Shown here: positions 19,653-45,600 of the stretch, in pieces
Position numbering within the stretch: position 1 is the stretch's first letter
Layout of the letters: the number at the start of each line of letters is the position of its first letter
NCBI GenBank assembly: GCA_914767715.1
Contig: OU612068.1
Location: forward strand, 5,520,001-5,584,000
Length of the DNA: 64,000 nt
Direction of reading: 5' to 3'
DNA from: Membranipora membranacea
Lineage: Eukaryota; Bryozoa; Gymnolaemata; Cheilostomatida; Membraniporidae
Position numbers and translations under genes: made by a program
Notes under the pieces: generated by a model
What the model saw: only the letters and a program-made list of their open reading frames with translations
Told to the model about the DNA's origin: nothing
Databases searched by the model: none

Positions 19653-19959
19653 TCCACGATTAGATGTCAGTTTTTCTTCATGTACTTTTTTTTCTCTTTG
19701 CTTCATTTGAACAGCAGTGTATCAAACACCGAATTTCGCAACATACTTGTATGTGAGTGACAAATAAACCAATCAATCGATCAATCAGAAGGTGTTGGAC
19801 ATTCTGTCATTCTCTGAAGACTACGATCAGAGGTGTTACAATCTAGCACTGCCAACGATCACAGCTTTCCTACAACCTCTTGCAGTGAACTCTTCACCAC
19901 AAAAAGCCGTTGACGATCACTATCCCCTAAATACAAAAGAAAAATATGATCGTAGAGCA

Positions 19960-20180
19960 AAGACAGATAAATACCGGCCATCCAAGTGTAGAACCACCAA
20001 GAGACAAAGCACCGTGTTGAATTTGATATGTGATTTCTCAACATATGCAGCTTAGACTCCCTTTTATTTTATTTTTCCACTCATATGCCGTACCATGGAT
20101 GGATATTAGAATTAGGCAATAATCAAATTTCATGAGGATGTCATGATCATTAATCTATAGATTGTCTAATAAATAAAAAT
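19960..20180 (+). repeat. Dispersed repeat copy B1
   Basis: Shares GATAAATACCGGCCATCCAA, a block with GATTTCTCAACATATGCAGC, and a TTTTCCACTCATATGCC region with 59190-59370. It lies upstream of the channel start. Confidence 0.65.
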
Positions 20181-20504
20181 TAGGAAAAATACCTGCTATT
20201 GTCAATACTAATAAATATCCTTTTTGGTTGCTCTTTTTGACTGGCGTTGTTTTTCATTCTAAGCATGACCAGAAAGTTGCGTATCAAACGACCTTTGTTA
20301 CAAACTGTGACGTATCACCATCCAAGAGTAACGTTGTGTTGATTATGGCAGCAACACAGTGCAATACGCAATTTTTCATAATGCCTTGACGTTTGACTTT
20401 GTGTATAACTTATCAGCGCTCAATTTTTCATCAATATTCTGGCAGCTGCGAAATTTTGAGCATTCGAACTTAGTTATCGGCTGGGATCACAAAATCGTAA
20501 TAAT

Positions 20505-23500
20505 ATGAAGAAGAAGAAGGATTTGGTAAAACCACAGCAAGCCAAGTCGAGAAGTTCATCAGGTACCAGCGTCCACTTTGATGCAGACAGCTCCAGCAGT
20601 TGTTTAAATGATAATACGACTTTCAATGAGCAGCCAGCCCTTCAGTACGGAGATGACATGGTTAAACAGGCACCCTCTAACTTCACAGCACTTGACAACA
20701 GGCTGTCATCAGGCCATGTTATCGGAATAGACAACTACAGACAAATTCACATGAAGAAGAGAATTACTCAACCTGAGATCGAGATCCCTAAGCGGGTGAG
20801 TTATTACCACACACACACACACATATATAAATATTTATATACAACATAAACTTTCAGTTATTTATATAAATCTAATGTATGTCTTATTTGTATGATAAGG
20901 GAGATTCTCCCTGATATGCTGTATATTCTTATATGCATGACATGTGATAAGCCTCTCACCACCCTGCTGCGCATTATTTCCAATGGAACATAGTAAGGTA
21001 TATTGTTATGTATATTCTATTATCTATGTTTATACTTGTTCCCGTTACTGATTGTTATATCATGAAAACTATGGAGTACACATTATACCAACTATTTCTG
21101 CCAAATTCTTCACCGGACGTTTATTGCTGCATAAAAAGCAAATTGTTCATTACCTGGTAGCATTATATACGTGAAAGTCAACGTTGTGCCAAATTGAAAC
21201 ACTGAAAAGGCAATGGTCTTTGGTGGAGCAACAGCGAGGATTTGGTAAATCAAACCTCACTTAATCTAGTTGAAACTTTATTGGCCCAATATTAATATAT
21301 AATTTATTGATAACTAGCTATTAGCGTCAATATTTCACTCAAGATCGAAAGCAAAATTCTTAAGCGCTCTAACTACCAAGAATTAGATGTGAGATTGAAT
21401 TGAGACAGCTTGGTCTCACAAAACAATCCTTTCATAACATAGAGGGACCAGCTTTGCTGCACTACCTTCCATCAGGGCACTGCAATTCAACGATTGCAGT
21501 GACTGTTGATAAAAAGCTTCATGAAGCAATTAAATACCTTGACAGTATCTTGTATTTAATTTTCTCAATTTTTTCTTTCTGTTCTATTTAGTACTTCCCG
21601 TTCCCAGCGTATGTCGACTTATATTTTTGTAAGCCAACTGACACTGCTCATTTGGAGAACTCACTTAACCTGCCTCGACTTGCCAGAAGACCTGAGAACA
21701 AGTGTCTGAGATGGGCGTGGCTTTGCTGGTGGAGGAACAGGGTGGGTTGATATTTTTTACCAACATATTTATAGAGTGAGAACTACCCTGCTGATGCTTG
21801 CATCGCTTCCTAGCTCACACTGGCCTACACCAGCTTCAAACATTACCTCAAATGAGACATACGACAAATTTATGAAACTAAAAATGTTTTGCGTCATTCT
21901 TTACGCTTATATGGTACTGTTCAGCACTAGAACATAGAGTGTCTGCTCTTTCTGCCATCCTAATTTGCGGGCTCTAAACATTCAGTGTATGCATGCGAAA
22001 ACGATCAAGGCATACGTTTGTCTCTGTAGCATAGGTTCTGAATGATTCACCTAGACCGAGCTCTTTGGAAAACGATGGAATCCCTTTTTTTGGAAAATAG
22101 CTTGGCCACAATGGAAGACTGGTTCTTATATATCATATCATATCATTTATGTTGGAAGGCTGCGCCACCAATACGGTGCTGCTGAGTTAGTTTTTGCCAC
22201 AAGACCATCTCGCGGCCAGTATGCAAAACATAACGGCTATTCGTTCATATATTTATTCAGGCTTTTGGATGTCTCAAGAGCAATCAATCGATCAGAGACT
22301 CGGCTAACAAACTGGTTTCAAGTTTCATGTTCAAAATTCTGATTATGATAGTCATAATTGCTGACTGTGTGCATATGGCAAGTAGCCCAACTACCGTCGA
22401 AAATGTTCCAATACTAGGAGCCATGTTTGTCACAGTCTACATGACAGAGATGATACTGAAGATGCTTGCATTTGGAGTTTTCTGTCATCGAGGCAGCTAT
22501 TTTACTAGTCCATGGAACTGGCTTGACTTCATCCTCACTGCTGCCGGGTTGGTCTCATTAAAGTCGTCAGCTTTAAGCGTCAGCGTCAATTTCTCCCTTT
22601 CTTATGCTTAGCCCTTGTTGACCTATGTTCTGCGTATCTTGAAAACAGAGATTCATGAACATGACGCGCAATATAACCTTTTGAATAATCATCGTCTTTA
22701 GCATGCAGGATACTGAATACTGAATACAGGATACTGAATACAGGATACTGAATATATCTCATGCCCACCGCTGTTTCCTTCATAAAAAAAACCTGTTTAG
22801 CTGATGTTTGCTTAATTCTTTTACACCCATTTAGGGTATTCTCGTACTCGACACAAGGAATCGTGAATCTTAATCTGACAGCATTCAGAGCACTGAGGAC
22901 CATCAGAATACTCAGAACAATATCATCCTTCAAAAGTATGTCATTTCATAATATCCTAGTGATTTCATGCAATACCAATTCCTGATATTGTTTCTTTAGC
23001 ATGCCATGTGTCATACGGATCCTGTTGTCTGCAGCTGAAAATAATGCTCAAATTTCAACTAGTTGATTTTTTTGTTTGTGAACAACAAGATGCTGGCATA
23101 TCATCCACACATCACCGGGCGATGGTATAATAAATATTCTGCTTGTTAATCAGTATATTCATCACCAGGAACTAAGAATAATGACTAAAATAGAATTTAA
23201 TGTTCGTCAATCACGATATTTGGTGTCTATATCTAGGACTGTATTAAGCATTGTGGGGTCCTCTTTGGTATAATAAATATTCTGCTTGTTAATCGGTATA
23301 TACATCACCAGGAACTAAGAATAATAACTAAAATAGAATTTAACGTTAGTCAATCACGATATTTGGTGTCTATATCTAGGACTGTATTAAGCATTGTGGG
23401 GTTCTCTTTTTTCCACTAGATGTCAGAGTGCTTGTAAACGCTCTCTTCGGCTCCATGACTGAACTCCTAGAAGTAATCCTCTTATCCATGTTCTGGATGG

Positions 23501-26500
23501 TGGTGTTTGCTCTGCTTGGACTTCAGTTCTTCAATGGCAATATGAAAAGACGATGTGTGTTACCGTACACTTTCCCCAACGACACAGGTTTCAGCCCTGC
23601 TTTGCACGACCATCCACCAGGAGTTACCCTCCCTATGTTAGATAGTCAGAAATCGTTGTACGCGGTTACAACCAGGGACACGGTATCGACAACCTTAACC
23701 TATATGTTAAGTACTGAAGCTACGAAAGAAGTGGGACAAGTGACCAGTGGCATAAAAACAACAAAAATGAGACTATCGCCCTACCCTGAGTATACAAGCT
23801 GGGTCTATAACGAAGGTAATTCTGCTGTTTAGTTCTTCAGTCTTTCATTGAGTACTAAGTGTTACTTACCATTGGTATAGAGTAAATTTCTTGCACAAAA
23901 AACATTAATAAAATGCAAATGCACATTATGACAAAGATTTTAGTTCTACCCATTTAGTTTGATCACTATGAGGAAGCAGTAAGACTTTCGTATACACATT
24001 TTTTCATTTGATGACCAAATGAACGCCGCCATGAAATCTTGAGGGATTGAGAAGTAGCTTTTCCTTTATATTAAGTTGATGATCCCAATGCTGTTAATCG
24101 ATTGCATATAATTTCAAATCATCAGATAATTGGGAGATACCCCAGACAGATGATTCCCCCGTACTGTGCGGTAATGTGACAGGATCGAGACTCTGCCCTC
24201 CTCCTTATGTCTGTATGGAGCTGTCAGCTATCGACAATCCTTATGATAATAGTCTCAGTTTTGACAGTTTTGGAGACGCTCTTCTGGCCACCATGCAACT
24301 GGTCATTCTGGATAATTGGGAAGATGTGTACAAGAAGGTAAGTGACTGCAATGATAAAACATTTAGCTTGCCTGATTCTATAATGGTGTCAGCACTAATT
24401 ATTAGATGATTGTTTGGAGTTACTTTCCCTTGTAAAAGGGGAGAACAACAACATAGTGAATTAAATTCGATTTTTTTTAAGCCTGTTTACCAGAAATTAC
24501 TGAATATGAATTCAGAGTAGTAGTTGTACTCTCAGGGCAATGATTGGGCCCTGTAATGGTGATCGATGTTTTATGACTGAATGGTGTTGTATTTGAAGAT
24601 TGTTCATTCTACTGGACCACTGAGTACTCTATTCTTCATCGGGACCACCTTCTTTGGTAGTTTTCAGCTGCTGAATGTTATACTCGCTGTTATAGACACC
24701 TCCTATCATAGTGAGCTAGAACAGGCTGATGTAAGTGTTGGCAATGAATTTTTTTTATAATTCTTAGTGTTGGTTAACTAACTCATGGATGAGGATGTGA
24801 TCAGTTTGACTGTTAAACATGTCTTACAAACCGCGATCTGTTGATTGGAACATGAGAGTACTCGGCCTAATTTCCGCCATCATTGCAGTTCAAATTAAAG
24901 ATCTTTAACTTGACCATGGATTTAGTTGTAATCAGGTGCTCTTGTGTTGAGAACTCTGTTGTATTATCGCTACCTTGAACTTGCTGCAATAATATTCATG
25001 ACTCTGTCACAGGTGGAGACGGCTGAAGAAGCTTCAGTAAACAAAAGTAAAAACAACTCCACCACAGAAGATAATATAAATAACTCTGCTAAACCGGAAA
25101 CCTCTTCCGCTGCCCCCCTGAGGAGTAGTATATCTAAGCCTAGTGCTATGCGCGGCTCAATGAGTGCAGGTAAAACTCAGAGATCCGTCTCGATGGCCGA
25201 AGGATTTACTAGATCCCCAGGTGATGCTATCAAAGATCACATAGAGGGATTCAAAGAAGAGGAGGAAGTGAATTTGACCCAAGACCCTACTGTCCCTGTT
25301 CTCAAAACAGCTGAAGATGATACCACAACTGGAATGGATACGGATAAATCCGCTGAGGCTCCGACCATTCTGTCCCATCGTAAGAGCATATTGAAGAAAT
25401 CTGTGCAGCTGGGGGACAAGATCGACCCCTCTGCAAAACGAGTCACTATTATCTTGGATCCTTCCAGTGTCATATATCTCGATGAGATTAAGTTGTCTCC
25501 TTTTTGGAAGAGTGTGAATACTTACAGGTCATATGTAAGCGAGGCTGTGGAACATCCCGTGTTTCAGCTATTCATTACTATGGCCATACTGGCAAATGTG
25601 GTTGTGATGGCTACCGAACATGCTGATATGAGTGAAATACAAGAAATCATCCTCTACAAAGCGAACGCAGTAAGTGTTAACTAGATATATATTTACCTGA
25701 ACATGTCGGGAGCTTGAACAATCGATTTGCTAGCGCACCATCACTAAATGAGAGTTTGTCCAACCGATATTCACTTTTTTATTGTTTGGTCGATGTTATA
25801 TTTACAAAGACACGCACATCTGCCATGTTTATTCCACCCAATTATCCAAGATCTATGATCAAAACTATACTATAGTATGTGCTAAAACTTAGATTACCAA
25901 ATAATCTGCTGCTGACTGGTGTCCAGTAGGGGTGGGAGGTCTCAACTCTAATATGAAATATAAAACAAAATTAGATAAATTGCTTGCCCGACGATGTTTT
26001 TTTGTTCTACAACCAGACAATACCAGTTACATTTGCCATCCATATTGATGCAGTTAGCTTTATGCAGACAACTAAACCAGTACACTACATCAGTTCTCTT
26101 TCAGCTTCAGGGTTTCACTTTGTTGGGCATGAAGTTTGATTGCTCAGATTTGATCCAGTATAATATTTGTTTTTCTTTTTTTCAGGGCTTCACATTTGCC
26201 TTTCTTGTTGAGGTGTTGATAAAGCTGACAGCTTACAGCCCAAAAGATTTTGTCAGCAATGGATGGAATTTGTTTGATTCTGTGATCGTGGTGGTTAGTC
26301 TGGCAGATCTATTTATATCTGAACTGTTACCAGGCCTTACTATACTCAGAGCATTCAGGCTGGTAAGCCATGTCTCAGTACTGAGTAAAATAAAAACCGA
26401 ATATTTAATCAGATTCCAGCTGATTGCATGTGAAAAACGTCTAGAGGTGGAAATTTTGAGCCCTAACCAAGGCTGAAATTTCTTTTTACTTTGATGTTGG

Positions 26501-29500
26501 GAAGGTCACTTTGGAAAAATGTCAACGCCGACCTGTTTTGCAATTTATGACTATATTTAACCATAGTGAGATTGAAGAGCATTACAATTATAAGCTACTT
26601 GTACCAATTTTAGTAACAGCTCAAATGTTGTGAGAGAAGTCATTGGGTGTAAACACCACGCTATTTCATATACCCTAGCCTGACAGGCTAGGCATACCTG
26701 TGCTCTCAGTACCGAGGGGTTGTCGGCGGGGCTAGAGCTTGCGGGCTCAAACTACCCTTTTCCTAAAATAAGGGACCAGCAGATGTTCACATTCATGATA
26801 ACATTCATACAAAAATACATAAATGCTCCCGTATGTTTACTGTTTCATTCCTATTTTCACATTGTAAACAATATTTATGACATATGTACCAAAGCCAAAT
26901 TAAATTTAACCTGAGCAGTTCAGTGACAATCAGTTTGACACATGCCTTATCATACATAGATCATATCTAATTTGTATTTCACAGTTGAGAGTTGTGCGAC
27001 TTGCCAAGGTCTGGCAGACACTGAGAATACTGATACAGACAATGTTACACTCTCTACCTGCTGTGCTTAACATGACTATAGTGGCTTTTGTGATGCTGTT
27101 TACTTTGGCTTTATTTGGAATGCATGTTCTAAATGTCTTCTATCGCAAAAAGGGGGAAATATTCAGGTAACTTTGATCATCTGGCATTCCAGGGGTGTAT
27201 TGTAACTCATTTTGATGTAGAAAACACATCAATTTTTTAGAAATAATTTATAAAAAAAGAATGTCTCCTTGTTCCAGGTCTTCAAGACACATAATATAAT
27301 ATGTCGCATACTTTGACTCTAATAATGGTGATTTCCTTTGTTGCAATTTGTAATCACCTCTATTTAAAAAAGGCAGCATCACAACCAGCATCTTTTTTTG
27401 TGTCTCACAGTTATGTAAATAATCTCCCTTCAATTTAACTTATCTTCATTCTCAAGCCTTCTTTTTTCCTTTTCCTCTTTTATTTCGGCAGTATTCGGAA
27501 AACATTCCGCTACTGGAATGAAGTAGACTGCCATTGAAAGTGTTCAAAAAAGGAAATAGAACCACACATTTCTGCTCGTATATTTGTAAACATATTACTC
27601 TTTTTTATCATTTAGATGGAGATTCACGGATTTCTCCCACAGTATGATGTATGCGTTTATCATCATGTGCGGGTCGTACATTGAGCCGTTACGTGAGTGT
27701 GTTAAACAGGCTGGTAATGAGTATTATGTGTGTATTATCTCACTAACACCTCTGTTCGTCATAGGGAATCTCATCGTGAGTAACGTATCTAAAATATCTC
27801 TTATATATATCAGGTATATATATATATATATATATATACCTGATATATATATATGATAACTATTTCCATATAGCATTTCTGCACCACCCTTTCTAAACGC
27901 AGCTTCCTGCTTTCTGTTCAAACAACAAACACTTTCGATAAATTTCACTTGAAAGATTGAATCTTGTCGTTTTCTAGATCTAGAAATCTGATATCTGAAA
28001 ACATATTGCTAGCTTATATTAAAATACCAAAAACTAGCTTAACTTACCCCTAGCTAACATTTACTCATTTAGTGTAACTTCAACTTATCCTTTTAGATAT
28101 TGAATCTCTATATATCGATCTTGCTCAATAGCTTTGACCATGAGACATTTAATGTGACCGGAGGTCCTACCGCCAAGTTTAAGCGTCTTGGTTACAAACT
28201 GATGAAAACTGTGAAAAGAAGACTCACCAAATCTCATTCCATGGTCGTTGAGTATAGGAGAAAGTCTATTATGCCTCAGGTTGTTACACCGATTGTGAAG
28301 GAGCCAATCGATATGAGCAGCATTGTGTTTGAGAAATGGTGAGTACCTGGGCACTTACGGTGATTCCAAGTGATCTGAGCTGATTCAATTTCGTTTGAGG
28401 TGATTTTGGTTGATTCGAGTTGATTCGAGTTAATCCTAGGTGAGTTAAGTTGATTTTTCTGCTTGGTTTGAGGTGATTTGGGTATATTTGAGTTGATCCG
28501 AGTTGATTAAGTTGATTTTCTGTTTATATTATTGCCTTGAAATTTTTTGTGAGTCTCCAACATATTCAATTCAAAAAAGTTGTTCAGGAAGCATAAATAT
28601 CTTTATTTTGTCGCATTACTTTCTGTTCACAGTGTGAATTACAAGCCAAGGAGCAGCTTCCATGAAGACAACGTTCCTGTCCCACCTGCAGTGCCGCTCA
28701 ATCCAGGCTCATATCAGAGTATGCTGTATCTTGAGCAGTTCTCACCAGACAATAAATTCTCATTCAAACGTCTCATGCAGAAGATTGTCTCCTCCAGAGC
28801 GTTTGAGTTTGTTATCCTGATCTTTATCTTAGCTAGTGCCACATGTTTGGTGAGTTTGGAGTGAAAAAACTATGAAATGAAAATTATAACAGAAATTTGG
28901 GCATTTTAACATTGTCATTAATCATGATGCCTCCATGCATGAGAAGCATTCATAATTACAGTTTGTAGTGTCCCCTTATAGTCGTGGCAGGCTGTCTTGG
29001 GTGGGTGACAGCCTGCCCAGGCTAGTCCCTCTAGCTTGGAACATTATCATAAAGAGCAAAAAAAAACTTATGGCTCTGTGGTGCATGACCTCAATCTTCT
29101 CCTCAAAATGGTGGTGTAAGGCAGTATGATGTTCACCCTCTCTCTCCTTTCAGGCTTTAGACGATGTGTACCTTCCACAGAGACCTTTACTAGCTCGAGT
29201 TCTCTTCATTACAAACATTGTTATAACGATTGTATTCATACTGGAGATGTTTATGAGGATGGCTGCTTATTCGTGTAGGGACTACTTTTCGATTGCCTGG
29301 AATATTATTGACTTTGTAATTGTGGTTGTAAGTATGTTAGGATACTTTGACCTGTTGTACATATGAAATGATAGAATGCAGAATGTCTTATTGCGACCTA
29401 AAACGTGTTTAGAAGGTTAGAACAAGAAGCAAGGGCAAGTTAAAGACTCAGATTAGTAAATGACCCCATACAGGTCATTTAAAAACTGTGAGCTAATGTA

Positions 29501-32500
29501 TTTGATCTGGTTAGAGGGTCAAAATTATTGATAAACAGAGTATGATTGGGCCCGAAGAGCAGAATGTTTCCATGTTGGAGCTTGGGGCTGCGTCTAAAAA
29601 GGTATGAACCACAACTGATTTACATCAAATTGAATATTTTTTCCTTTATTGCAGTTTAGTATCTTTGACCATTTGGAGCACCTGTTTAATTGGCAGATAG
29701 GTCTCTCAGCCTTCAGGGCCTTGAGATGCTTCAGAGCACTGAGGCCTCTTAGGTTCGTCTCGAGGTGGCCTGGAATGAAGGTAGGTGGACATTGAAAAGA
29801 ACAATTACTTTTTTTCGACATATGAACCCCTGTGTCACCTCCCTATTTCGGAAGCAAAAGCTTGCTGACTAACAGCAAACCTCAACTACCCCATTAATAC
29901 CATCAGTAATTTGGGAGAACTTCCTGAAATGGTCAGCCAATCCGTGAAAGTATAGTGGTGAGTATCCCTGCCTGTCATTACTGGTCGCAGGAGACTGGGG
30001 TTTGATTCCGCATCACGGAGAGCTTTGTTTTTGATTTGGTCATTAGATTTGTACGAGATGCCACCAGTTATTTGTAAGAATTTCCCACCATGGTGAGTCA
30101 ATACGTGATAGTATAGTGGTGAGTATCCCTGCCTGTCAATACCCGCAACTGATCAGAATAATCTGTCCAGTTGGTCAACAGATCGCAGGAGACCGGGGTT
30201 CGATTCCCCGTCACGGAGAGCTTAGTTTTTGATTTGACCGGATGCTTTGTAGGAGATGATTGATTGATTGATGAGTACTTTATTATCGATCTAAATACAT
30301 TGAAAAATGTTTATTACTGATCAGATTTACAATAAAAATAATAGTATAGCATAAAAAGTATTTAATAAAACTAAAAAAGAGGGAGACCATCTCAATCAGC
30401 ATTAGGCATCAGTTTCACATCGTATTCCCATATTTGATGAACAGACATCTGCTGGCTAGTGCAGTGTAATGGGGGTATGGTTCGGCTGTTATTGCTGCTC
30501 AGTCTTGGTCTGCGAGGTCTGCATGAAGACGGCTCAGGAAGCAGGTGTTTATGCATGTCTCATTTCTTCTGGCAGTATATGACACATTTCATCTGGAGTT
30601 GGTCGCATAGTTTTTCAATGTCAGCAGTTGTACACCTTTGGTCATAGCTTTCACAGCATGGGTAGATGATTTAGAGTGCTAGCGATCGTATTGTCTCGAG
30701 TTGTTCCATGCTGTGTCTGGTAACATAAGGGAACCATGCAGGTGCTGCGTATGTCGCTACAGATAGTATGTTGGCTTTGTAGGCATGCAGTAAACTAGAT
30801 TTTGATACTCCTTTAGTTTGGTCAGACCGCGGCACTTAGATCTGCATTCTGCACAAGGTCGATAACATGGTGAGAGAAGGATAGATGGGAGTCTACAATT
30901 ACACGAGCAGTCTGAAGGTGGAGACATTTTCGATTTTCTCATCTCTGATCATAATTGTGTCAACAGGTGGAGCACTTCTGAGATTCAGGATCATGGTTTT
31001 GGTCTTCTCTGTATTCATGGAGAGGAGATTACTCCCACTCCAAGTTGAGATGTCATTAGCTGCGGCTTGTAGCGTTGAGTTGTTGTTGGCTGTTAAATCA
31101 GAGTATGCTGTGCTGTCATCTGCATACTTCATTACACAAGCTGACTTTGCTGGCATGTCATCAACAAAGATATTCCATAGGACAGGACCCAGAAGGCTTC
31201 CTTGCGGCACTCCGATGTTCACAGGTCGCTCATTGGATTTGATGTCTGTTTGTCTTATCACCACTGAGGTTGCTCTGTCTGTTAGGAAGCTATGGATTAG
31301 TTTGATACTTGTATCCCCTAGTCCCTTGGAGTACAGTTTGTTAACGAGAATATTAGGATCCGTGTTATCAAAGGCTTTACTATAGTCAAAGAATAATGTG
31401 TGAATACCTTTGATTTGCTTCTTATCCAGTCTCAGGGCAGCGTCAGTGATAAAACTGACGAGAGCATCAGTACATCCTTTTCCAGGTGTATATGCAAACT
31501 GGTTAGGTTGGATTAAGACTGGTCGCACCTGTTTGACAATAAAATGTTTTATAATTTTCCCACAGTGCGATAGGAGTGAGATCAGTCTGTAGTCAATGCG
31601 GGTTTGGGGTGACGTGGTTTTCGGTATCGGTAGGATCTCAGCCGTTTTTAAGAGTGAAGGGAACACTCGCCTTGGAGGCAGCAGTTAATGATGTGTGTCA
31701 GCAGTTCACTCAGAAATTCAGCATTGTTCTTGCTGATCCATGATGGGAAGTCGCTACTGTGATTGGCTTTCTTTGTGTTAACTTGGCGGAGCTTGTTGTA
31801 GACTGCTGCTTCATTGGTGGTGGTAGAAGTGAGGCTGATTTGATCTGGTTGGTTGACGGTTACAGTGGATGGTGTAGCAAGTGTTGCGTAAAAGTTGTGT
31901 TGGTTTCTACAAACCTTTGGTCGGTCATCCGTGTGTCGCTTAGATATCGCCTGGTTGGAGCAGCAGATGATGTAGAGTCTGGGTTGGTTAACTGTTTGAC
32001 ACTCTGCCACCATTTCCTAGAGCCCTGCGTGATGCTGTTGATTTTTGTAGCAGAGAAGGAGCGGCGTTGGTAAGTGGCCTATTTACCACTTTCCACATGG
32101 GATTTCCCTTTCGATGGAGTTTCTCCTTTAATCGTCTCAATTTGATTGGTTCGGGGTTCTCTAAGAGGGGTTTCCCAGCTTTCACCTCAACATTCCTTTT
32201 CGGACAGTCTTTAGTGAATATTTGATGTAATGTTTGTTGAAAGCGCTATACTTTTGTACTCACATCATCTGTATCATATCTGACAGACCATGATTGCACA
32301 TTGAGTTCTCTAGTAATTAGCGCTTTTGCCTTCTGAGTGACCATGTGTTTTGTTTTGGTGACATATTTAGATTGCAATAATTGTTTGGGTGCATCTATTT
32401 GTATTACAAAGTGGTCATTAGATCTAATGGGGGCAAGCTTTCGGATGTTGGAATTTCTGTACTCATTCACATTGGTCATTACGAGATCGAGCGTAGCATT

Positions 32501-35500
32501 ACCTCTCGCAGCAAAAGTGATCAGCTGATCTAGATCAAACGTTTGGCAGATTGGTGTTACATCTAGGTCGTTAAAATCCCCATGTATCAGTAGTTCAACA
32601 TTTGGAAATTTTGTGCGGCATTTTGTAATGCATTCGTTGATGTGGTCTCTAACATCTGCCTTCTGGTGTTTATTGAATCCTCCAGGATAGTATATTACTA
32701 GATAGTAGATAATGGCTGGTAATTTATCCTCTCGTTGTAATTTTATCCATAGAAATGAGACAGTGGTGCTTGTGTATTTGTGAACTAGTTTGGTGGTCAA
32801 ACTGGATTCGCAGTAGATGGCTACTCCTCCTCCAGTTTGGTTTCTGACACGATTTGATGTGTAGAGATTGTAGTCCGGTAAGGTGTAGATGTTTTCTTTC
32901 CCGCTAGTGAGCCAAGCTTCGGTGAGCATTATAATATCATTTCCTGGTGTCAATTGTAGTAGTTCCTGGTGCTTGTCGGCAGTGATAGATCTCATTTTGG
33001 TGGCAAGCAGGCCAGGCCGTTGGCGTTCTGGTGGATGTTGTTTGGTGATTCTCGTTCGGTGCACTCGTATCAGGTTTGGTTGTTTGGATGCTGATTTGGT
33101 AGACTGTCGACGGCTACTGCCGGACTCGTGCTGCCAGACATCTTCTTCTTCCCTAATACTACTATTCAGACATTGAGCGTCTGTCAATAGCGTTGGACCA
33201 TGCAATGAATAATTTGTAGGACCTGCCTACCAAGGTCAGCCAATCCGTGATAGTATAGTGGTGAGTATCCCTGCCTGTCAATACTGGCAGCTGGTCAGAA
33301 TAATCTGTCCAGTTGGTAAACAGATCGCAGGAGACCGGGGTTCGATTCCCCGTCACGGAGAGCTTAGTTTTTGATTTGGCCAACAGCTTTTTAGTAAAGT
33401 CCATCAGTAATTTGTGAGAACTTTCTACCATGGACAGACAATCCGTGATAGTATAGTGGTGACTATCCCTGCCTGTCAATACTGACAGCTGATCAGAATA
33501 ATCTGTCCAGTTGGTCAACAGATCGCAAGAGACTGGGATTCGATTCCCCGTCAGGGAGAGCTTAGTTTTTGATTTGGCCAACAGCTTTGTAGGAGATGCC
33601 ATCAGTGATTTGTAAGAACTTTCTACCATGGACAGACAATCCGTGATAGTATAGTGGTGACTATCCCTGCCTGTCAATACTGACAGCTGATCAGAATAAT
33701 CTGTCCAGTTGGTCAACAGATCGCAAGAGACTGGGGTTCGATTCCCCGTCAGGGAGAGCTTAGTTTTTGATTTGGCCAACAGCTTTGTAGGAGATGCCAT
33801 CAGTGATTTGTAAGAACTTCCTAACATGGTCAGCTAATCTGTGATAGTATAGTGGTGAGTATCCCTGCCTGTCAAAACTGGCAACTGATCAGACTAATCT
33901 GTCCAGCTGGTCAACAGAACGCAGGAGACCGGGGTTCGATTCCTCGTCACGGAGAGCTTAGTTTTTTGATTAGGCCAACAGTTTTGTAGGAGATGCCATC
34001 ATTAATTTGTAAGAACTTCCTGCTTTGATTAGCCAATCCGTGATAGTAGAGTGGTGAGTATCCCTGCCTGTCAACACTGCCAGCTGATCAGATCAAACTG
34101 TCCAGTATGTCAACAGATCGCAGGAGACCGGGGTACGATTACCCGTCACGGAGAGCTTAGTTTTTGATTCGGTCAGCAGCTTTGTAGGAGATGCCATCAG
34201 TAATTCGTAAGATCTTCCTACCATGGTCAGCCAATCTGTGCTAGTATAGTGGTGAGTATCTCTGCCTGTCATTACTGGCAGCTGATCAGGATAATCTGTC
34301 CAGTTGCTCAACAGATCGCAGGAGACCACGGTTTGATTCCCCGTCACGAAGAGCTTAGTTTTTGATTAGGCCAGCAGCTTTGTAGTAAATGCCATCAGCA
34401 ATTTGTGAGAACTTCCTACAATGGTTAGCCATAGTGTTAGTATAGTGGTGAGTATCTCTGCCTGTCATTACTGGCAGCTGATCAGAATAATCTGTCCAGT
34501 TGGTCAACAGATCGCAAGAGACTCGGGATCGATTCCCCGTCACGGAGCGCTTGGTTTTTTATTGGGCTAAATAATTAGCAGCTGGTTTGTAAGTAATTAT
34601 CCCTTGATTTAACGGCCTAACGCTGGGTGATAACTTACCCTTATGAATATCAGGATTTTGATGAAATTGTAAATACTTGTGAGCACCTTCATCTGGCAGT
34701 TTTGGCCACTTGGAGTGAGAAAAAGCTTTCCTCAAAAGATTGATTCTGCCAAAAAAAAGGTTTTCATAATTGCACAATATTTAGAACTTTTGTTTCATTT
34801 TGATCACAGATAGCAGTCGCAGCTATGGGGATGGCTATACCTTCAGTACTGAATGTAATTGTGATGTGTATGATTATATTGGCTACATTCGCTATCCTAG
34901 CTGTCAATCTCTTCTCAGGGAGGATGAATAACTGTCATAATGCCACTACATGGCAGGTGGGTTTTTGACATTGAACCCATTGGCAGTTTGAGACACCCCA
35001 ACATACATTTGAATTTAGAAACAAAACATCTCTAACGGTTTTAATTACCTTGTGCTTTATCATTGACAGCATTTTCGATACATCGATACATACAAATTCG
35101 ATTGATCACAACTGTAGAATTAGATCGAGGCTGCGCAAACACAATGGGTTCGTATGATTTTATCTCTTATTTTAGGTTGTTTATGCAGTAAATAAAAGCT
35201 CATGTATCTTAGAGCATGGTGAGAGTGCATGGAGACCGACAAGATATAACTTTAACAATATTGGAGCCTCATACCTATCACTATTTGCAATCGTAGGTAT
35301 ACCGTAATCCCTCACCTATGGATCCGCCACTTATAAGTGAAGGCGGCTATAAGAGAGTAGCATATAGACGCGACTATCATTTGAAGCATTTTTATATTTA
35401 GATTGGACCAAAACCTATTACAGTCACTGAAGCTGAATAGCTCAGTGGTAGAGCATATGACTTGTAAACATGGAGTAGTGAGTTCGAAACCCACTAAGGG

Positions 35501-36568
35501 CAGATTTTTTCCCAAAACTACTTAGTTCATTTGTAGTGAGTGTAGTGTAGCGAGTGTCTTATAGCTGTGGGGTGTCTTATAGCTGTGGGGTGTCTTATAA
35601 CTGGAGCATTTTTATTTTTTCTGAGGGGGGTGACTTATAGGTGAGGGATTACGGTAATTATTTTTTTAATATTGTTATAACAATAGTTTTGTTGTATCGA
35701 TGCAAGGACGATTGTTCACATCCTGAAACATAGAGCCCTGTCTCGGATAGAACCTGATATGATTGTTGTTAACTAAAAAACTAGTACAAGGTCTTTCCTC
35801 TTCCAGAATCGTTGTCATTTCCTCGTGCAGTGACCTCCATTATTTAGACAGCACTTGGTGTTTCCTGCTTGTCAAGGTTTGCAGACAGGAAATTAGGGTT
35901 GTTATTCGCAGTGTAAGGAAACACTGCGGCACGTCCTCCATTATTGATTTCGAGGACATATGAAGTGATGACAAGGCATTAGGTTTGAGAGCAAAAATAT
36001 CTCACTAGGACTCTATAGCCCTCTTTTTCAGATACCCAAAGTGACTAAGACTAAGCTAGTTCAAAGTTGCAGATATAACCTGTTGATTTTTCTATTATCC
36101 ATTTGTACTATCGAAGCTATACAGATAGACTTTTGTCGGAAAAAATTCATAACTGATGTGGCCTGTTGGTTTGTAAGCCAGCACACCGGCAGCCAGTCAC
36201 AAGCCCGGATAAACACAGAGGGTTGGCGACAAGAAGGGCATCCGGCCGTGAAAAACCCTGCGACAACAGGATTTTTTTTCTCACCTAAACGGCTACCCGC
36301 TAAGGATACAGCCGGCTAGGTGAGAAAAAAATGACCGTTAATGGGAGTCAGTCTGTTGAACAACAGAGTAGTTTCTTCCTCCATTCCCGTTTCACAGTCG
36401 ATAAATGCTCTACCAAAGCAACCTGAATCTCTCTGATAGGGACAGGTCTCTTTGGCAGAGAACTGGGTTGTTTGGATTTATGAAATCTACTGACTGATAA
36501 CTTGACGTGTCTGACAATAATTTGTAGTTGGTTATTTGAAACATAATACACTATAATATATATTATAT

Positions 36569-36601
<33 letters not shown>

Positions 36602-39600
36602 ATCTATATATTTAGTAATGTAAACTTCAAACACCCACACTGTTCATGGCACTTAATTCCACACCTTAATCTTTCGTTCTAAGAGTTGTCAGCCATTGAT
36701 GTTGTGATTTGGCCGTCACCCTTGCTGTTTTCTATCTCATCATAATCTAACTTTGGACGAGCAAGCAAGCATCTTTACAGTTAATAATCGACCACCATCA
36801 ATCTCATGTTTCGTGAAAATTATCACGGAAAGAAGCAATTATAACATATCCCTACTGGCAACAAGTATTCTTACTGTGAAAGTATCGAAGTTGTAAGGGC
36901 AAGCCATGGCTAGATACCTATCTCAGGTTCTACATCCATCCATCCATATTCATACCTGTCTTTTATAACAAGACTAGTCGAATGTGTTGATGGTATGGCT
37001 AGATTAGGTTTACTCAGTAACGGAGAGCAAGAACTAACTTGTGGACCAGGTTCTTGAGTTATGTAATTCAGTGAAACTTAAAAAAAAACAGTGGTTAGAC
37101 GAATAAGATGTGTTGAAATTGAGTTGATCTTTCAATGAGGAAAATTGTCTTTAGTATTTATATATAAAAAGTCACTAATTCTAGCAATTATTAAAAGGTA
37201 AGTTATCAAAATTTACGCTATAAATGTTTGCTCTTTCAAGCGAATCACCCAATTATTTTGAATTGAATCCAGGCTTGATTGTGTCTAATTTACCAAACTA
37301 AATTGAACTATGGTTCTGAGCGTGCTCAAAAAAAGAGCGGGAAAAATTCTAAATGTAGGAAAATATTTCATATAACTGAAAGACTTGAGAAAACTGCAAG
37401 TTTTTTTTAATTATTTCTGCGCTATATTTTGTATAGCTGCTTCATAGCGTTGTTGACTGTTAAGTTTTATTCCATTAGTAAACAAGTTAGGGATATCATA
37501 CTCTTTCAAGTTCGGTTTATGAATGGTATATCATTTTCTGTCTTATAGAATTAATGAAAATGAACTGGCCCTAGATGTTTGTGAACCAAAAGTTAATCTT
37601 CTTAATCATACAAGCATTCACTAGTGACAGACGATCAGAAATTTTTGCCAAAGCTTATGTTTCAATCAGATTGACCGCTTTTTCATCCGATCAATCTTGA
37701 TAATTGGACCAATCAGATTTTAGTCAAAGGCTGAGTAAAACATCACCAGCTCACCTATAAAAGTCTGAATTTTGCTGTACATAAGACAGTAACAACTCAT
37801 AATTTAGAGATTGTGAGCTGAACTGAAAGGAAGAAAATAGAATCATGCGGCAGAGCTTTTGAATTATAACTCTACTTTTGGCTGGATGTGCTGTGTTCAC
37901 AGCAACAGGTAAGTGATAAGCCCTTTTGCTGCTGAGGCTCAATCCTACGGAGCCCAGAACGTGTTGTAAAAGCAATTATATGCTTGAGGTTAGTTAGTTA
38001 ATTATCCTACCGTGCATACCTTGGAACCAGAGACTATGGATATATAATATTATCTATAGTCTGGTGCAACTAAAAACTGGATCAGAAAATTTTGAATGCC
38101 TAATGGACTAGAGCTTACATTTGTGTCAATCTATAAGTCAGATTAGTTGCCCGTTCACATTCAAGCTGCATATTATTTGTATTATCCTCCATGGTTGGTA
38201 ACATTTGTATTTTCATGGTTTTGCCTGAGCCTCAGAACCCGCTAGTTTTTTCCTTCCATGTCGGACACTGATTTGGTTTCTTTCTTGTTGTTTTTTAGCC
38301 TCTTGCTCTGATGGGTGGCTGACTGCTCCTTCAGGTATCTGCTTCAAGTTTTTTGGCCGTTCAAGAGCCACTTGGCCTGATGCTCAGAGATTATGTGAGG
38401 TCCACGGTGGAAGCTTAGCTAGCTTCAGATCTTGGGATGATCTTCAATACATCAATGGCTACAGGTTGACATATCTAGGTATGTCATTAGATTGTTGCGC
38501 TCAATACATATACTGGGCACATATCTCAAATTTGCAGGAGTGATAAAGGTCAAACCTCTCGATTTGATGATCTCATTTCGCAACATAACTTACTGCACAA
38601 GCTACCTACATTAATGAAGATGTCACCAATGTTTCAGGTTCGGCCCCAGACTATTGGATTGGTGGGAAGAAACTTGGTAGTAGCTGGTATTGGATTTCTA
38701 ACTTCAAAGCAGCTCGAGCAATTGGACCTGCCATCTTCTGGACTTGGGGTCAGCCTGACAACCTTTGGGGAAAGCAGCATTGTATGCAGATGTGTTCTTG
38801 GTGCGGACACAGATGGGACGATGACTACTGTGACTGGCACAAAGCGTTCATATGCGAAAAGGAGTGATTGTGACTAATCATAATCGCTCCATACAAATGT
38901 CTTTGTTGTATTATGTGTTGCGCTGAGATGATACTATAAGATTCATTATATTAAACATAAATTTTTTTGTAACATGCTTTCACTGACGCTAATAATATCA
39001 TCAAATACATCGTGCCTTGAAATCCCCACCAACTCTTCTTCGTTGTATGAAAGACGCTGTTGAACAAAAACTTTTGTATTCATTGCAGTATTGAGGTATC
39101 ATTCACTATGGTTCCATGGGTCGATTTTGTGGTTCACTCCAATCTCGAATGGTTAGAATCCAGTGGATTCTAACCATTTCCATGATGGGAAAATCATGAA
39201 AAGAATCTGCCGCGGCCGGGACTTGAACCCCGGCCTCCCGCGTGTCATCCCTCTGAAGGCATTGTGTGCAAGCGCGCTAACCATTCAGCCACGACGCCAA
39301 TAAACACGGTATGGATATTCGTGTACAAAAACTCATTCGTCACAATCAGAATTCGACTTTAATGCCATTTTATGGGGCGATTACTCCCGAAATCCTTACA
39401 TAATCGATCCATGGAACCATCGTGAATATTTCCTTCTGTGTGCACTTTCCTTTGTTATGCTGATTCACAATATGACAAAATGGGTACGGTCACTAAACAA
39501 ATGTCAAATGTTCCACCAAAGAGCTCTGCCACGTCCACAGCACAAATTATTGAGTATTTTGTCAAATCCTAATTCTAGAAATCACACATGCTCCTCATAG

Positions 39601-42600
39601 ATTTGGGCTATGGTTGTCGGTTGCGGTAAATTTTGTATTTGGCAAAGTGTTGGGCATTTTGTCATTTAATTCGCAAATATGTTGTTATCTAATTATTTTC
39701 AACTCGTAATGTGGCAAGAAATTTTACATTTTGTTTGCAATGTTGAAAGCAATCTTTTTGGATTTGACATGTTTATTGCAGTAGTATTGTATTTATAATG
39801 AAATTGAAGCCAATGCAGGTAATAATGGTAGATTTTCATGATCGTTCTTCCCTAAAACAGGCCTGCTGTGGCTGAGCACTGCAATCCAAACAGGGTAAAG
39901 GATCCTAGTTTTTGGACTTGGACCTGTGGTAACCTGATGTAAGTAGACAAGCATAACCAATACAAATTATGGGCTTTAAATTTGTGACGGCATCAACTAG
40001 CAGAACAGGGATTGTCCCTGTTATACTGGTAGCCTTTAGCACTATAGCACCAAGAAGGTTTTATTAGCCTTGTCATGTGGCTAATTTAAAAAATAACCAC
40101 ATGACAAGGCTAGGGTATCACATGACAATCTACTTTAAGCGCTCCTGAATTTCCAACATGGGAAACATTTACATTTTACCCATGACAAGAATAATTCTCA
40201 GTAACAACAACACTGAGATTGATGAGAGAAATCTGTCGAGTTTGTAAATAAGAAGCTGATTCTGAATTTATGAAGTGTATAGGCAACAAAACTCGTGCAT
40301 ACATATTCCTTTCTGTAAATCTCAGACAGCAGCATTCAAGCGGGAGAGAAAAAAGGAGAAAAAAAGAAGATAGTGATTCTTGCGGCACTGCACACATAAC
40401 TGGTGCTGATAATGCTGCAATCCCCAAAGACATAATCATACTCACTTTCTTCTATTTTCTATTGGACAGTCTGTCTAATGATTATTGGGCTGTGTGAGGG
40501 ACAGCGGAGCTCTGACCTGCCTAAAATTCTATGCGCATATTAGAGTATCAATTTCTGCTACAAATATTCCACCACCCACTATTTGGAATGTGGCATGATC
40601 CCAAGGATTTGTTGTAATTTGGATGTCCCATTGTGTGCTATGCTATACGTTCTCTATTTTCTACTTTTCCATTGACATCTATAATGGTAATTATCCCTCT
40701 CAATTTTGTTGTTGATTTTAGGCTACTCTGGACAGCTGGACAGATATTTATGAGCAGGCATCTGATGTTGTTAGCGTGAGTAACTGATACTTATTGGTTC
40801 ACATCAGAGTGTATTTTTGTCAAGGACATTAATGCAAGAGTGATGTTCTACAAGAATGAATTGATATTTTTGGGGGTTTCTAAGAAGGTCTGTTTGATAG
40901 TCGTTGATTTTCTTAGCACAAACAAGCACATGCCCATCGTAGTTATCCTATACCCTTGTCCATTCACTAATCTTGCCGATAAACAGATAAGATTTAAAAA
41001 AATTTAAGTGTGAAGAGATTACCAAGCAGTAGTCCTCCTTTATAACCTTGATCCCTGCGGGCCTGACTAGAGTGTGTGCCAATACAGAAACATCTATAGT
41101 GGCCCGAGGATTCACAAGGTCATAAAGCTTTAGCTTTACCATTCACCAACAGTCCGCTCCTTCCCTGGTCTTATAAATGGATGTGATACGTGTGTTGACA
41201 ATGTAAGGGGATAGGGATGTGGTACCAAAACAGTCTATTTTATGTATGTTCTAGATTGATAAACCGTTGAAGTTTGAGGCCAATTATCTCCAGGCGAACA
41301 TATTCTTCCTGCTTTTCACCATAACTGGAGCTTTCTTCACCTTGAATCTTTTTATCGGAGTCATAATTGAAAACTTTAATAACCTCAAACAACAGGTAAT
41401 GTATGCAGGAAATTGATATTTGGTTTTAACTTTTAATCGCTCAATTGGTAATTGTATAAAAAAGAGATTGCGTTTGAAATGAAGCATTAGAAAAAAAATT
41501 CCCATGCTATCTAACTCTTGATGTGTGGATTATCATCGACTACATTGTGTGAACCCTTGATCATCAAAGCCTCGTCACAATGTATTGGTGACTGACTTCG
41601 CGTGTCTTGCTGCTCTCTTTGCCTTTTCTATTTGAGCCATATATGAGTCATAATATCAACATGATAACTTATTGTGTTATCAACTCTTTGGTAGTGTCCA
41701 TTCCATAGACAAACAATTATCTTCGCTTGGTTTGATCCTTGCACGACTTGTTGGATGCAAAATACGAACTTTAATTTGGCATTCAAATACAAGATTCTTA
41801 TTTGGATAAAAGACAATAAAAGAACTTATAATCTATTAATAATAATTTAATTTCAAGATGGAGGGCAAATCTTTGAGAACAATCATGATGTCTGATCGTC
41901 AGCGACAGTTTTTCAGATCTATGCAGAGACTGACTAGAGTCACAAGGTCTAAATATTACCAGCATAGAGGCCTTCCCACATGTAGGTCCAGACTATATGA
42001 TATAGTCAATAGTCAGCCATTCGATTACTTTATCATGGTATGTGTGATAGCCAACGTGGTCTTCATGTGTACATTCAGGTAAGATAACTCTATATCATTC
42101 ATAATTAGAGGAGTTAATATTAGCAAGCGCTTGGTTTGGCTAGCTATGACTATGAGGTGACTTAATACTAGCATGAAGCAGTGAATTTTTTTTTCTTCCA
42201 GCGAACACTCTTTACTCTATATTACATTAATGACTGCTCTTCGCCTTAGATAGTACTACTTGCAGCTTTTGTAAAGCTCCATATACACTGCAGATTTTCT
42301 GTCAAACTTTTCATCAGATTTTCCTCTTAGTATAAGCTGTCATTGGGAGTAACCATAATCTGAATTTTGTGACAATGCCACATAACACATATCTTTGGTC
42401 GGCTCCAATGATAGCTTGTTAAAAGCAAAATCTGATGGGAGAATCTGACAGAAAAACCTTAGGGAAAAATCTGCAGCTTTACTCCTTGCACAGAGTTTAG
42501 TTGGAGAACAAAATTTCACCCAACTTGCAATATTGGGTATTTATTACCAGCCCTTTATCATATTCAATTCTATATCGTTCTAGAATTTAATAATTTATTT

Positions 42601-45600
42601 AACCCTTTATATTTATTAGATATGGACAGTCAGCTCAGGCGTTTTACGTTCAGAACCTCGCTGATTCTATTTTCACCGGGCTGTTTACTCTCGAGTTAAT
42701 TGTCAAGCTGTTTGCTATGGGCAGAGATTACTTCAAATCAGGCTGGAATATTATGGATTCTGTTGTTGTCCTTCTTGGATTGATAGGTGATTTTCCGATT
42801 GCAAAACTCAAACTATTTGTCTATATACCTTTGGTGCATTGTATTATATAATTTGACTCAATTTATTTTTGGTAAAAGTCTCAGCGGTCTGTTTTATTGG
42901 CTATCATGTCTTATAGTGATTTTGACAGTTTAAACCTCCCGATCGTGTGACGTTGAGTCACAGTGACTTTGTACGGTCCATTTTCCCTTTTAATCTAGAC
43001 AAATGCTAGCATTGTTGTAGAATCAAATTTTATTTTTAAACTTCCTAGCTTCAAGCTTAAAAGTGCTTTCTATAAAAGCAATACAGTAATTTCTCGCCAG
43101 GCCTGCAATTAAACTCCAGTCATGCAGGTACCAATATGCTTGATATATCTTACCATTGTCACTATCAAACTATTGCTTGGTTTCATCCTAGTCACAGATA
43201 ATAACCACTCTCATATCTACTGTCGCTTGCCTCTTCTACATGCTGTCAAAAGACAACTTTAGCAGAGTTACTGTTCTGTTCTGTTCCATTTCCATTTTAT
43301 TGCACAGTTTGTATCAAAAACATAACAACTGAATACAACCTTCACCTAGGACTGTGATTTTTATTACCGGTTCAGGAACAGTACTGGAGTCTCTTGGTGC
43401 AGTTATCCCCTCTTCAGCGACAGTAATAAGAATAGTGAGAATGTTTAAAATATTCAAAACTTTTAAGTTGGCTCGTAACATGAGAGGGTTACAGGCAGTA
43501 CTACAAACTATGATTCTGTCTCTACCAGCGCTATTCAATGTCTTCTTACTCCTCTCACTAGGTATGTATATATATCATATATCTAATTATGTTTTATTAT
43601 ATCATTATGTTTAGTCATGAAGGTGATCTGAAGGCTTGATCCCTTTACAGTGTATAGTTTAACCGTCTTGGCCCGTCTTGGTATGTCATACTTTGCCAGG
43701 TTGACAGTCACAGTGTGAGTAAGATTGATGTTAAAACCTTGACTCAATGTAATGGAATTGAAGTTATAGTAAAGTCTTTCTCACTGAAGAGTTTCTAGCA
43801 AAGGACAGCTATTTTGGGCGATGATTCTTATGCCGGGAGACTTTGGCAATTGAGATGGTTGAAATGTAAGACCAGCTGTGTCAGATTCTCTGGCTGACCC
43901 ATGTTATATACCCTTCATTCACGACTGAATAGCTTAGTATTTTTCATCCCATCATATTAGCGGAATATCACAAACAATAATTATTTAAATTCTGTCCTCG
44001 CTGTAATATTTGTGTCACTGTTTACAGCCATGTTTATATATGGCCTGATGGGGATACAGTTATTTTCCCACATTAAGCCTACAGGAACTCTGGATGAAGT
44101 GTTGAACTTTAGAACCCTGTCAGGAGCACTGATGGTTCTATTCTCTATGATGACCGGCACTGGATGGACTCAGGTCTTTCTGGTAATTAATGACTTCTCA
44201 CTATACTCACCCCTACTTACATAGATTCAACATGCTGGTGATGTTTTAGGTCGATGATGAGTTGTCTGCTTAATGTTGTAGGGGGAGGTAATAATTACAC
44301 ATAGTTACATTAAGTATGTTAAATCATGCTGATGGTTTTAGGGTATCTTATTCGGCATATAGGGTGACTAGGAAAACAATCAAGTAAATCTGTGTTACCT
44401 ACTTGTCTCGGAGATTCATTGGATCCATAATGGCAAAAACATATTAGAAAAAACATGTATTCAATTCAAACTTGCACACCACTCTGATTTACATCACCAT
44501 TTTAGGCACTTTCTATCGAGCCACCCCTATGTACAAAGGCTGAGGACAGTTCAGGGTTTGGACGTAACAGATTAGGTGATTGTGGGGCGTATGTGACGGC
44601 TCTTGTGTACTCAGTGTCCTACATAGTACTCATGTCCTTCATTCTCATCAATACGTATATCGGTAATAAGGCTGCAGCCGACTTCCAAGAAGTGTTATTG
44701 TTCAGTTTTGTTAGATTACTTAGATTATTTTGTTTTGTTCTCTTAGCCTTACTATATCATTATGTCAGGGTGGCTACTTACATCACAGGTAGTTTGTATT
44801 ATGACTTTTCATGTACAAACATCATATTACCCATGTATCATCGGTGCATCACAGTGAGAATGTGCGAACTTGAGGCAAGTTACTAGACTCTACCATCTTG
44901 TGTTGGTACTGGTGGGATTACAATCATAGTGTAGTGCCACCATTGTAAGGGAAAAAAAGCTTAGCAAGAAAACTATCAATTTGTTTTAGCCCGGCCAAGG
45001 ACTGTCAAACTAACTCCATCTATCACTAGATTCATCAATTTGGTAGTTTTCCATCAGGAAGTGTTTTTGCTATCATTACAATGTTTAATCTGCTCTGTTT
45101 TGCAGCCATAGTGTTGGAAAATTTCCTGGAATTGAGGCAGCAGAAGTTGATATCTGATGCTGATTTAGACACATTCTACTATGTGAGTTACCACATCAAT
45201 AGTTTGTGTGCTATCTGTTTACTTTTGGACTGATATCAAATTCAGTGCATTGTACATTAGTTGGACAAGCGTGTCGCAGTGTTTTTTGAAATTGATAAAG
45301 TGATCTGATTGGCCTCTTTTCATATCATCTGCTTGTTGTTGAATGAAAATGACTCCCTTTCACTTACGCATGTTTTGATGTCAATTAATCATTTGAAAAT
45401 GGGATTTTAAATCTTTTGGCAATTTAAACCAAGTGCCTATCATACTTTTTTTTCATATCTAATGTAGGTTTGGGCCGAGTACGATCCAAATGAGACACAG
45501 TTTATACACATGTCACAGCTATCAGACTTTCTACACCGTCTAACTGGAACGCTGAGAGTTGCCAAACCCAATAAAATCAGAATAGCAATCATGGATGTCG

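Follow-up and report, generated by a model that had tools for sequence, protein, structure and literature searches.

A sodium-channel-class gene with a D-S-D-T selectivity ring in the bryozoan Membranipora membranacea

The window analysed here, a 64,000-nucleotide stretch of chromosome 4 of the bryozoan Membranipora membranacea (sea mat), contains a gene for a four-domain channel. In the hand-built spliced model all 26 introns are GT-AG and the 1796-residue product is free of internal stops, which bears out the 27 exons and closed frame of an earlier sequence-only reading. The span given there, 24126-44182, runs from exon 6 to exon 23, the outermost pore exons, but the whole gene extends further on both sides. 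Pfam PF00520 matches four stretches of the protein in one frame, unlike CatSper with its separate one-domain subunits, and the S4 segments are positively charged in all four domains (DI to DIV). The features are as follows, with positions in the window unless a chromosome is named.

18459-25589, + strand: duplicated stretch, from 2 kb of upstream sequence into exon 8; its inverted, truncated copy lies at chromosome 4 5,420,681-5,427,665
20505-46156, + strand: complete Nav-class gene with 1796 codons in 27 exons; the product has four Ion_trans domains (exon model, spliced alignments, Pfam PF00520)
24126-24337, + strand: exon 6, DI pore; ring Asp471 codon at 24311-24313, then Asn472, where the usual Nav residue is F or Y
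27616-27775, + strand: exon 11, DII pore; ring Ser882 codon at 27674-27676, then Tyr883; Glu885 codon at 27683-27685
35176-35292, + strand: exon 17, DIII pore helix; the exon ends immediately 5' of the filter
40722-40775, + strand: exon 18, DIII filter; ring Asp1260 codon at 40731-40733
41858-42078, + strand: exon 20, III-IV linker; IMM at the Nav1 IFM site
44028-44182, + strand: exon 23, DIV pore; ring Thr1557 codon at 44159-44161
45837-46156, + strand: exon 27, C-terminal part; IQ-like segment with Ala in place of Gln

When the gene was modelled by blind spliced alignment, using snail Nav2 (P0061) or hemichordate Nav (P0053) each as the sole query, the same four ring codons were recovered in both runs. 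Exons identical to the hand-built model numbered 16 of 28 with P0061 and 14 of 26 with P0053; the DII, DIII and DIV pore exons were identical in both, and the DI pore exon was identical with P0061 and matched at its end, with a different start, with P0053. A splice-model artefact is unlikely, since both alignments choose the same pore exons. Alternative pore exons, or errors in the splice model, could hide a normal ring, an idea favoured by the 5.4-kb intron preceding the DIII filter exon and by the two tandem DIV pore exons at the Nav1-like locus of the host, which indicate that pore-exon duplication occurs in this genome. However, no convincing second Nav-type pore exon was found in the 64 kb by tblastn with seven Nav2 pore segments, and a motif scan in all six frames returned the DIV exon, one stop-containing chance match and nothing more, so that hidden pore exons in the window are unlikely. 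Considering also the agreement of the blind alignments, bar the DI start with P0053, a hidden normal ring is extremely improbable.

Alignment with Nav1, Nav2 and Cav-like sequences placed D471 (ILDNW), S882 (CGSY), D1260 (TLDSW) and T1557 (GTGW) at the ring positions, the same D-S-D-T as called before; the earlier reading had raised the possibility of an acidic residue at the DII or DIV ring site, and the alignment shows S882 and T1557 there instead. Position 882 is encoded by TCG and position 883 by TAC, each two bases from a Glu or Trp codon, respectively, and a single base error is therefore no explanation. The 117 aligned rows that cover the complete ring include many isoforms and close relatives and leave out the D-E-D-D paralog described below; among them, DSDT occurred once, in the window gene. 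The single DEDD row of this census is a Cav3 fragment with a misaligned domain I.

For Nav, Cav and NALCN alike, ring types have been compiled into a 'universal set' in a 2018 review (PMC6259924, consulted in excerpt here and below). DSDT does not figure among the animal types of that excerpt, in line with the earlier claim that the ring lies outside the known types. A DIV Thr by itself has precedent, DEET being in the same listing. A literature search of limited extent found no description of D-S-D-T or D-E-D-D rings. The DII change from Trp to Tyr, previously described as unusual, is indeed rare (172 of 176 rows have W, 2 have Y), but it is not unique, as an acanthocephalan Nav has Y and the paralog has F.

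Across 115 other Nav rows, 324 columns show at least 97% invariance, and the window protein retains 216 of them; its near-invariant pore columns are retained at 9/11 in DI, 9/15 in DII, 4/7 in DIII and 6/8 in DIV. Glu885 is kept at the 'Na beacon' position of DII defined in the excerpt of PMC6259924. The pore might conduct little or nothing, with the protein serving in voltage sensing or coupling and the ring free to drift, which would fit the S4 charges retained in all four domains while 6 of the 15 near-invariant DII pore columns are changed. By the above counts, however, conservation in the pore is not clearly weaker than elsewhere in the protein, and we regard this explanation as distinctly unlikely.

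The earlier assignment to the Nav class was upheld by solved structures, the DII filter and introns. Among the best 60 of 187 matches to solved structures, the top ones were Nav1, with 754 bits for Nav1.5, 431 for T-type, 406 for L-type and 165 for NALCN. The DII filter of Nav is one residue shorter than that of Cav (PMC6259924, same excerpt), and in our alignment this gap is common to the window protein and the Nav rows and is absent from the Cav-like rows. In addition, 13 of the 26 introns have the column and phase of one or both host Nav2 genes, with 10 to 13 in common with each, as counted on host models with missing N-termini and uncertain linkers. A 21-row tree grouped the window protein with Nav and separated it from three Cav-like rows (100/100).

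According to the excerpt of PMC6259924, Asp-Glu in ring positions I and II is omnipresent across Nav1 and Nav2; the window protein has Asp471 but, in place of this Glu or of the Lys at II in cnidarian Nav1, Ser882. It shares an intron just 5' of the DIII filter with the host Nav1-like locus. Unlike Nav1, it lacks a lysine at ring II or III (S882, D1260), has IMM for the IFM-type inactivation motif, and has Asn for F/Y in DI. The ring of Nav1 is DEKA, with DKEA in cnidarians and DEKG in some fish. Nav2 (DSC1/BSC1, sodium channel 60E) has the ring DEEA and the variants DEEG, DEES and DEET (PMC6259924, excerpt). Like Nav2, the window gene is of the four-domain Nav class without ring lysine, and has L preceding the DI Asp and IEPL following the DII filter; its D-S-D-T differs from the Nav2 pattern D-E-E-(A/G/S/T) by DII Ser for Glu, DIII Asp for Glu and DIV Thr, and Asn stands beside the DI Asp. 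Judged by its sequence, the window gene belongs to the sodium-channel class; it is not a Nav1, for want of the lysine, and not a typical Nav2, whose ring is DEEA.

Nav-class rings departing from DEKA are also found in the aphid Nav heterodimer (DENS) and Nax (DENA), and the aphid channel has the same Asn beside the DI Asp (PMC4332693, in the part consulted). However, the DII Glu lost here is kept in both, and the aphid channel consists of two polypeptides whereas the window gene encodes a single one. Cav3 T-type channels (ring EEDD) resemble the window gene in their four domains and DIII Asp, but score 431 bits against 754 for Nav (best 60 of 187), lack the Nav-type gap in the DII filter, and are represented by a separate Cav3-like locus in the host genome. 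Cav1/2/3 have four acidic ring residues and the window protein two, with Ser and Thr; from NALCN (EEEE, EEKE or EKEE) it differs in ring and in sequence, with only 165 bits.

A sister gene with the ring D-E-D-D and 38-39% identity lies outside the window, on chromosome 1 of Membranipora. It keeps the DII Glu, followed by F, and its DIV ring residue is Asp. The DIII Asp and the DIV context MMTG-x-GW are common to both genes, as are 14 of the 26 window-gene introns, the paralog model having been guided by the window protein. The same guided model was used in the trees, and a snail Nav2 query yields the same ring residues. The paralog ring indicates that the DIII Asp is a trait of the pair, and that S882 and T1557 are peculiar to the window gene.

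The two genes were sisters in the trees (100/100). In free trees neither the window gene nor the pair grouped with Nav2, and the pair fell outside Nav1+Nav2. When the window gene alone was constrained to group with host Nav2, the tree was rejected (p = 0.0099); after addition of the paralog the same grouping was not rejected (p = 0.059), and the AU test gave p = 0.069 for the pair with protostome Nav2. The window-gene branch is very long, with about 1.4-1.5 changes per column. No closer relative of the window protein appeared among the matches listed (at most 120 of 268, at most 120 of 208, and 6) in searches limited in candidate length, against a database from which bryozoan proteins are possibly absent. 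The pair may be a rapidly evolving Nav2 derivative within bryozoans, or else a third Nav class of greater age. As a tentative proposal, which we consider possible rather than expected, it would be a third animal Nav-type class that split before the bilaterian Nav1/Nav2 divergence and was lost or overlooked elsewhere, with an ancestral ring of four carboxylates in a Nav scaffold, turned in the window gene into two aspartates and two hydroxyl residues.

The inverted copy, 98.2-98.8% identical, is situated about 111 kb upstream of the window gene and spans its first eight exons. Because it is partial, inverted and that far off, an uncollapsed haplotype is an unlikely source. Differences between the copies were 12 in 2146 coding positions and 61 in 4822 non-coding positions (p = 0.007), and the coding differences were 6 synonymous in 476 sites and 6 non-synonymous in 1669 (p = 0.03). 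This result shows coding constraint on domain I and agrees with the earlier statement that the gene looks constrained, for domain I and part of the I-II linker, on 12 differences, and for either one of the two copies. A decaying gene, with ring changes as relaxed noise, would account for the very long branch and the extra truncated copy nearby. Nevertheless, 1796 codons without stop or frameshift and GT-AG at all introns, despite that branch length, together with the scarcity of coding and non-synonymous change between the copies, make decay very improbable.

A working four-domain voltage-gated Nav-class channel, one of a divergent bryozoan gene pair, is the reading that we adopt, with middling confidence when taken jointly with the ring history and permeation proposed here. 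The ancestor of the pair would have had a ring near D-E-D-D, as in the present paralog, and the window gene would later have neutralised DII (E to S) and DIV (D or A to T). By domain order, domains I and III are opposite each other across the pore. The remaining aspartates would then face each other from these domains, with hydroxyl residues along the second diagonal. Since the ring has just two carboxylates and lacks lysine, the voltage-opened cation pore is expected to discriminate poorly between Na and K and to pass less Ca than DEEA Nav2, and E885 may still attract cations to it. Tetrodotoxin insensitivity is expected because the DI aromatic, DII Glu and DIII Lys are all missing, and altered inactivation and calmodulin control because IFM is replaced by IMM and the IQ Gln is lost. 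The residues thus considered, the product is most likely a weakly selective, tetrodotoxin-insensitive, voltage-gated cation channel. The altered ion selectivity or conductance proposed in the earlier reading is likewise a prediction. In Drosophila Nav1, the lysine-free rings DENA and DENS reduced Na selectivity and TTX block (PMC4332693, part consulted). T1557 may matter little, since ring position IV does not set selectivity according to the excerpt of PMC6259924. The 216/324 columns kept and the very long branch suggest that function may have shifted further than permeation alone.

Nav2-like Ca2+ conduction may instead persist, with the two ring aspartates, E885 and other vestibule acids sufficing and the ring change only tuning affinity. 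The ring has no lysine, E885 is retained, all four ring residues of the sister gene are acidic, and lysine-free Drosophila mutants became more Ca-permeable (PMC4332693, part consulted). Against this, the DII glutamate is gone, leaving two carboxylates versus three in DEEA, and we think such conduction unlikely.

A Nav-class gene that is intact and apparently constrained yet has lost the DII glutamate, and whose sister has an all-acidic ring, is a natural experiment on the selectivity-setting residues of the asymmetric Nav pore, and these channels may follow different rules of ion selection. The two ordinary Nav2-like genes of the same animal permit direct ring swaps. The pair further suggests that the Nav set of bryozoans is diversified, and among the matches listed no paper had, by title, a bryozoan sodium channel as its subject.

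Besides the pair, the host genome has Nav1-like, two Nav2-like, Cav-like and NALCN-like loci. More members of the pair are possible, 26 of 118 candidates of the genome search with snail Nav2 having been scored; the other four-domain loci were rejected as such members, as their short pore pieces look Cav-, Nav1- or NALCN-like. From filter motifs, with whole genes unread, we take the pieces on chromosomes 7 and 11 to be Cav2-like, those on chromosome 4 at 26.6 Mb Cav1-like, and those on chromosome 1 at 6.7 Mb Cav3-like. The pieces on chromosome 6, which do not include the DI ring residue, are by their filter motifs presumably Nav1-like, and two pore pieces on chromosome 4 at 7.1 Mb are presumably NALCN-like, the weakest of these assignments.

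We built the exon model of the window gene by hand, and in this model all 26 introns are GT-AG, the sole stop is the terminal one, and four Ion_trans stretches are found in the product by Pfam. In alignments with other channels, the selectivity-filter residues of domains I to IV (DI-DIV) are D471, S882, D1260 and T1557, and blind spliced alignment recovered the four codons whether the query was a Nav2 from a snail or a Nav from a hemichordate. The D-S-D-T ring proposed in the sequence-only reading is thus confirmed, and the span assigned there to the gene corresponds to exons 6 to 23, the whole gene being longer. The domain II 'Na beacon' glutamate is retained in the alignment as E885, and this Glu is not absolute, since two arachnid Nav2 rows carry Gln at the same position. 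When the genome was searched with a snail Nav2 (26 of 118 candidates scored), the matches were five Nav-class loci, including the window gene, and a truncated copy of that gene, with no match elsewhere.

Nav-class genes and loci in the Membranipora genome
Window 20505-46156, plus strand: window gene, 27 exons, 1796 aa; the window runs from 5,520,001 to 5,584,000 on chromosome 4
Chromosome 1, 162,183-187,942, minus strand: sister of the window gene, Nav class
Chromosome 2, about 33.113-33.135 Mb: Nav2-like gene, ring D-E-E-A
Chromosome 1, about 0.99-1.008 Mb: Nav2-like gene, ring D-E-E-G
Chromosome 6, about 10.67-10.70 Mb: Nav1-like locus, pieces CGEW, TYKGW and TSAGW, the domain I filter not among them

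Against solved structures, the bit scores of the window channel were 754 for Nav1.5, 431 for T-type, 406 for L-type and 165 for NALCN (best 60 of 187 matches). In the alignments, the gap typical of Nav channels is present in its domain II filter, and 13 of the 26 introns are common, in the same column and phase, to one or both of the two host Nav2-like genes. The earlier assignment to the Nav class is right. Because its ring is neither that of Nav1 nor that of Nav2, we file the channel, from its sequence, as Nav class but neither subtype. The ring was also compared with those of other channels in an alignment of 249 rows, to which 246 listed search-match proteins and the two host Nav2 genes had been added. 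All four ring positions were filled in 117 rows (DEEA 63, DEKA 43, DEKG 5, DKEA 3, DEEG 1, DSDT 1, DEDD 1), which are not independent lineages because many are isoforms or close relatives. The single DSDT row is the window gene, and the single DEDD row comes from a Cav3 fragment whose domain I is wrongly aligned. In the sections of PMC6259924 consulted, the animal rings catalogued include neither D-S-D-T nor D-E-D-D, and odd rings are reported from protists and algae.

The sister gene has the ring D-E-D-D (filter motifs LLDDW, CGEF, TFDNW and TGDGW), and its model of 1576 aa, without a stop, is 38-39% identical to the window protein. The two genes paired with support of 100/100 on a long stem of 1.44-1.45 changes per column. 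In free trees the pair fell just outside bilaterian Nav1 and Nav2, with supports of 86/95 (Cav-like outgroup) and 86/93 (coral root), neither of which exceeds the star threshold of the tree program itself. The AU test gave p = 0.059 when the pair was constrained with the host Nav2 genes, 0.069 with protostome Nav2 and 0.134 with Nav1. When the window gene alone was placed with the host Nav2 genes, the grouping was rejected at p = 0.0099; the values were 0.075 with Nav2 and 0.136 with Nav1. These placements and tests are all weak because of the long branches, and the pair may be a fast local offshoot of Nav2 or an older separate class.

Nav2-type filters (DIII FEGW, DIV AAGW) were also seen in the 'sodium channel protein 1 brain-like' of the salamanders Lissotriton helveticus and Ambystoma mexicanum, encoded on contigs that are 2.1 and 1.6 billion bases long. 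These filters run against the absence of Nav2 from tetrapods or bony vertebrates stated in PMC10120453 and in PMC6259924. In a tree, one of the two proteins lay outside Nav1; its branch was long and the support weak.

The S4 segments of the window channel carry positive residues in all four domains, IMM stands where IFM is expected, and Ala substitutes the IQ glutamine. Domains I and III lie opposite each other across the pore, so that the two aspartates (DI, DIII) would form one diagonal and the Ser and Thr (DII, DIV) the other. A ring that carries two charges and lacks lysine would be expected to give a cation pore of weak selectivity, and the earlier suggestion of altered ion selectivity or conductance appears reasonable. 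PMC4332693 reports that DENA and DENS rings in Drosophila Nav1 reduce both Na selectivity and tetrodotoxin block, and that in aphid channels Asn adjoins the DI Asp, as it does in the window channel. The D-E-D-D sister supplies an evolutionary setting for the odd D-S-D-T ring and makes it testable.

The truncated copy is an inverted 7.1-kb duplicate of window 18459-25589, located at chromosome 4 5,420,681-5,427,665, about 111 kb upstream, and it takes in 2 kb of upstream sequence as well as exons 1-8, breaking off within exon 8. The copies differ at 12 of 2146 coding versus 61 of 4822 non-coding sites (p = 0.007), with 6 synonymous changes in 476 sites versus 6 non-synonymous in 1669 (p = 0.03). 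Judging from this comparison, which reaches from domain I into the I-II linker, that region is under coding constraint in at least one copy; constraint on the remaining domains is suggested by the frame, which is intact along the long branch. The window gene retains 216 of 324 near-invariant Nav columns and, among near-invariant pore columns, 9/11, 9/15, 4/7 and 6/8 in DI-DIV. In the truncated copy, the upstream 2 kb, exons 1-7 and their splice sites are all retained, and it could encode a domain-I-only protein.

The Nav1-like locus has a tandem pair of similar domain IV pore exons, each of which ends in TSAGW (chromosome 6 10,673,801-10,675,300, minus strand), which are candidate mutually exclusive exons. 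Short filter pieces indicate one Cav1-, one Cav3- and two Cav2-like loci plus a NALCN-like locus; the Cav2-like pieces lie at two separate loci (chromosome 7 8.49-8.53 Mb and chromosome 11 10.40-10.45 Mb), and a Cav2 duplication in Membranipora is possible. Within the window, intron 17 of the channel gene harbours a C-type lectin gene (Pfam Lectin_C, 55 bits) at about 37845-38867, plus strand; as read by eye, an ATG in the first lectin exon is followed a few codons later by an in-frame TGA. Repeats resembling tRNA-Asp, in which about 40 extra bases interrupt the region of the anticodon loop, were seen by eye at about 29930-30210 and 33235-34560; ARAGORN found no tRNA anywhere in the window, and the one Rfam tRNA match (35437-35495) is outside these repeats. 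Intron 15 contains two long open frames (30899-33205, minus strand) that, by eye, read like LINE remnants with reverse transcriptase and endonuclease.
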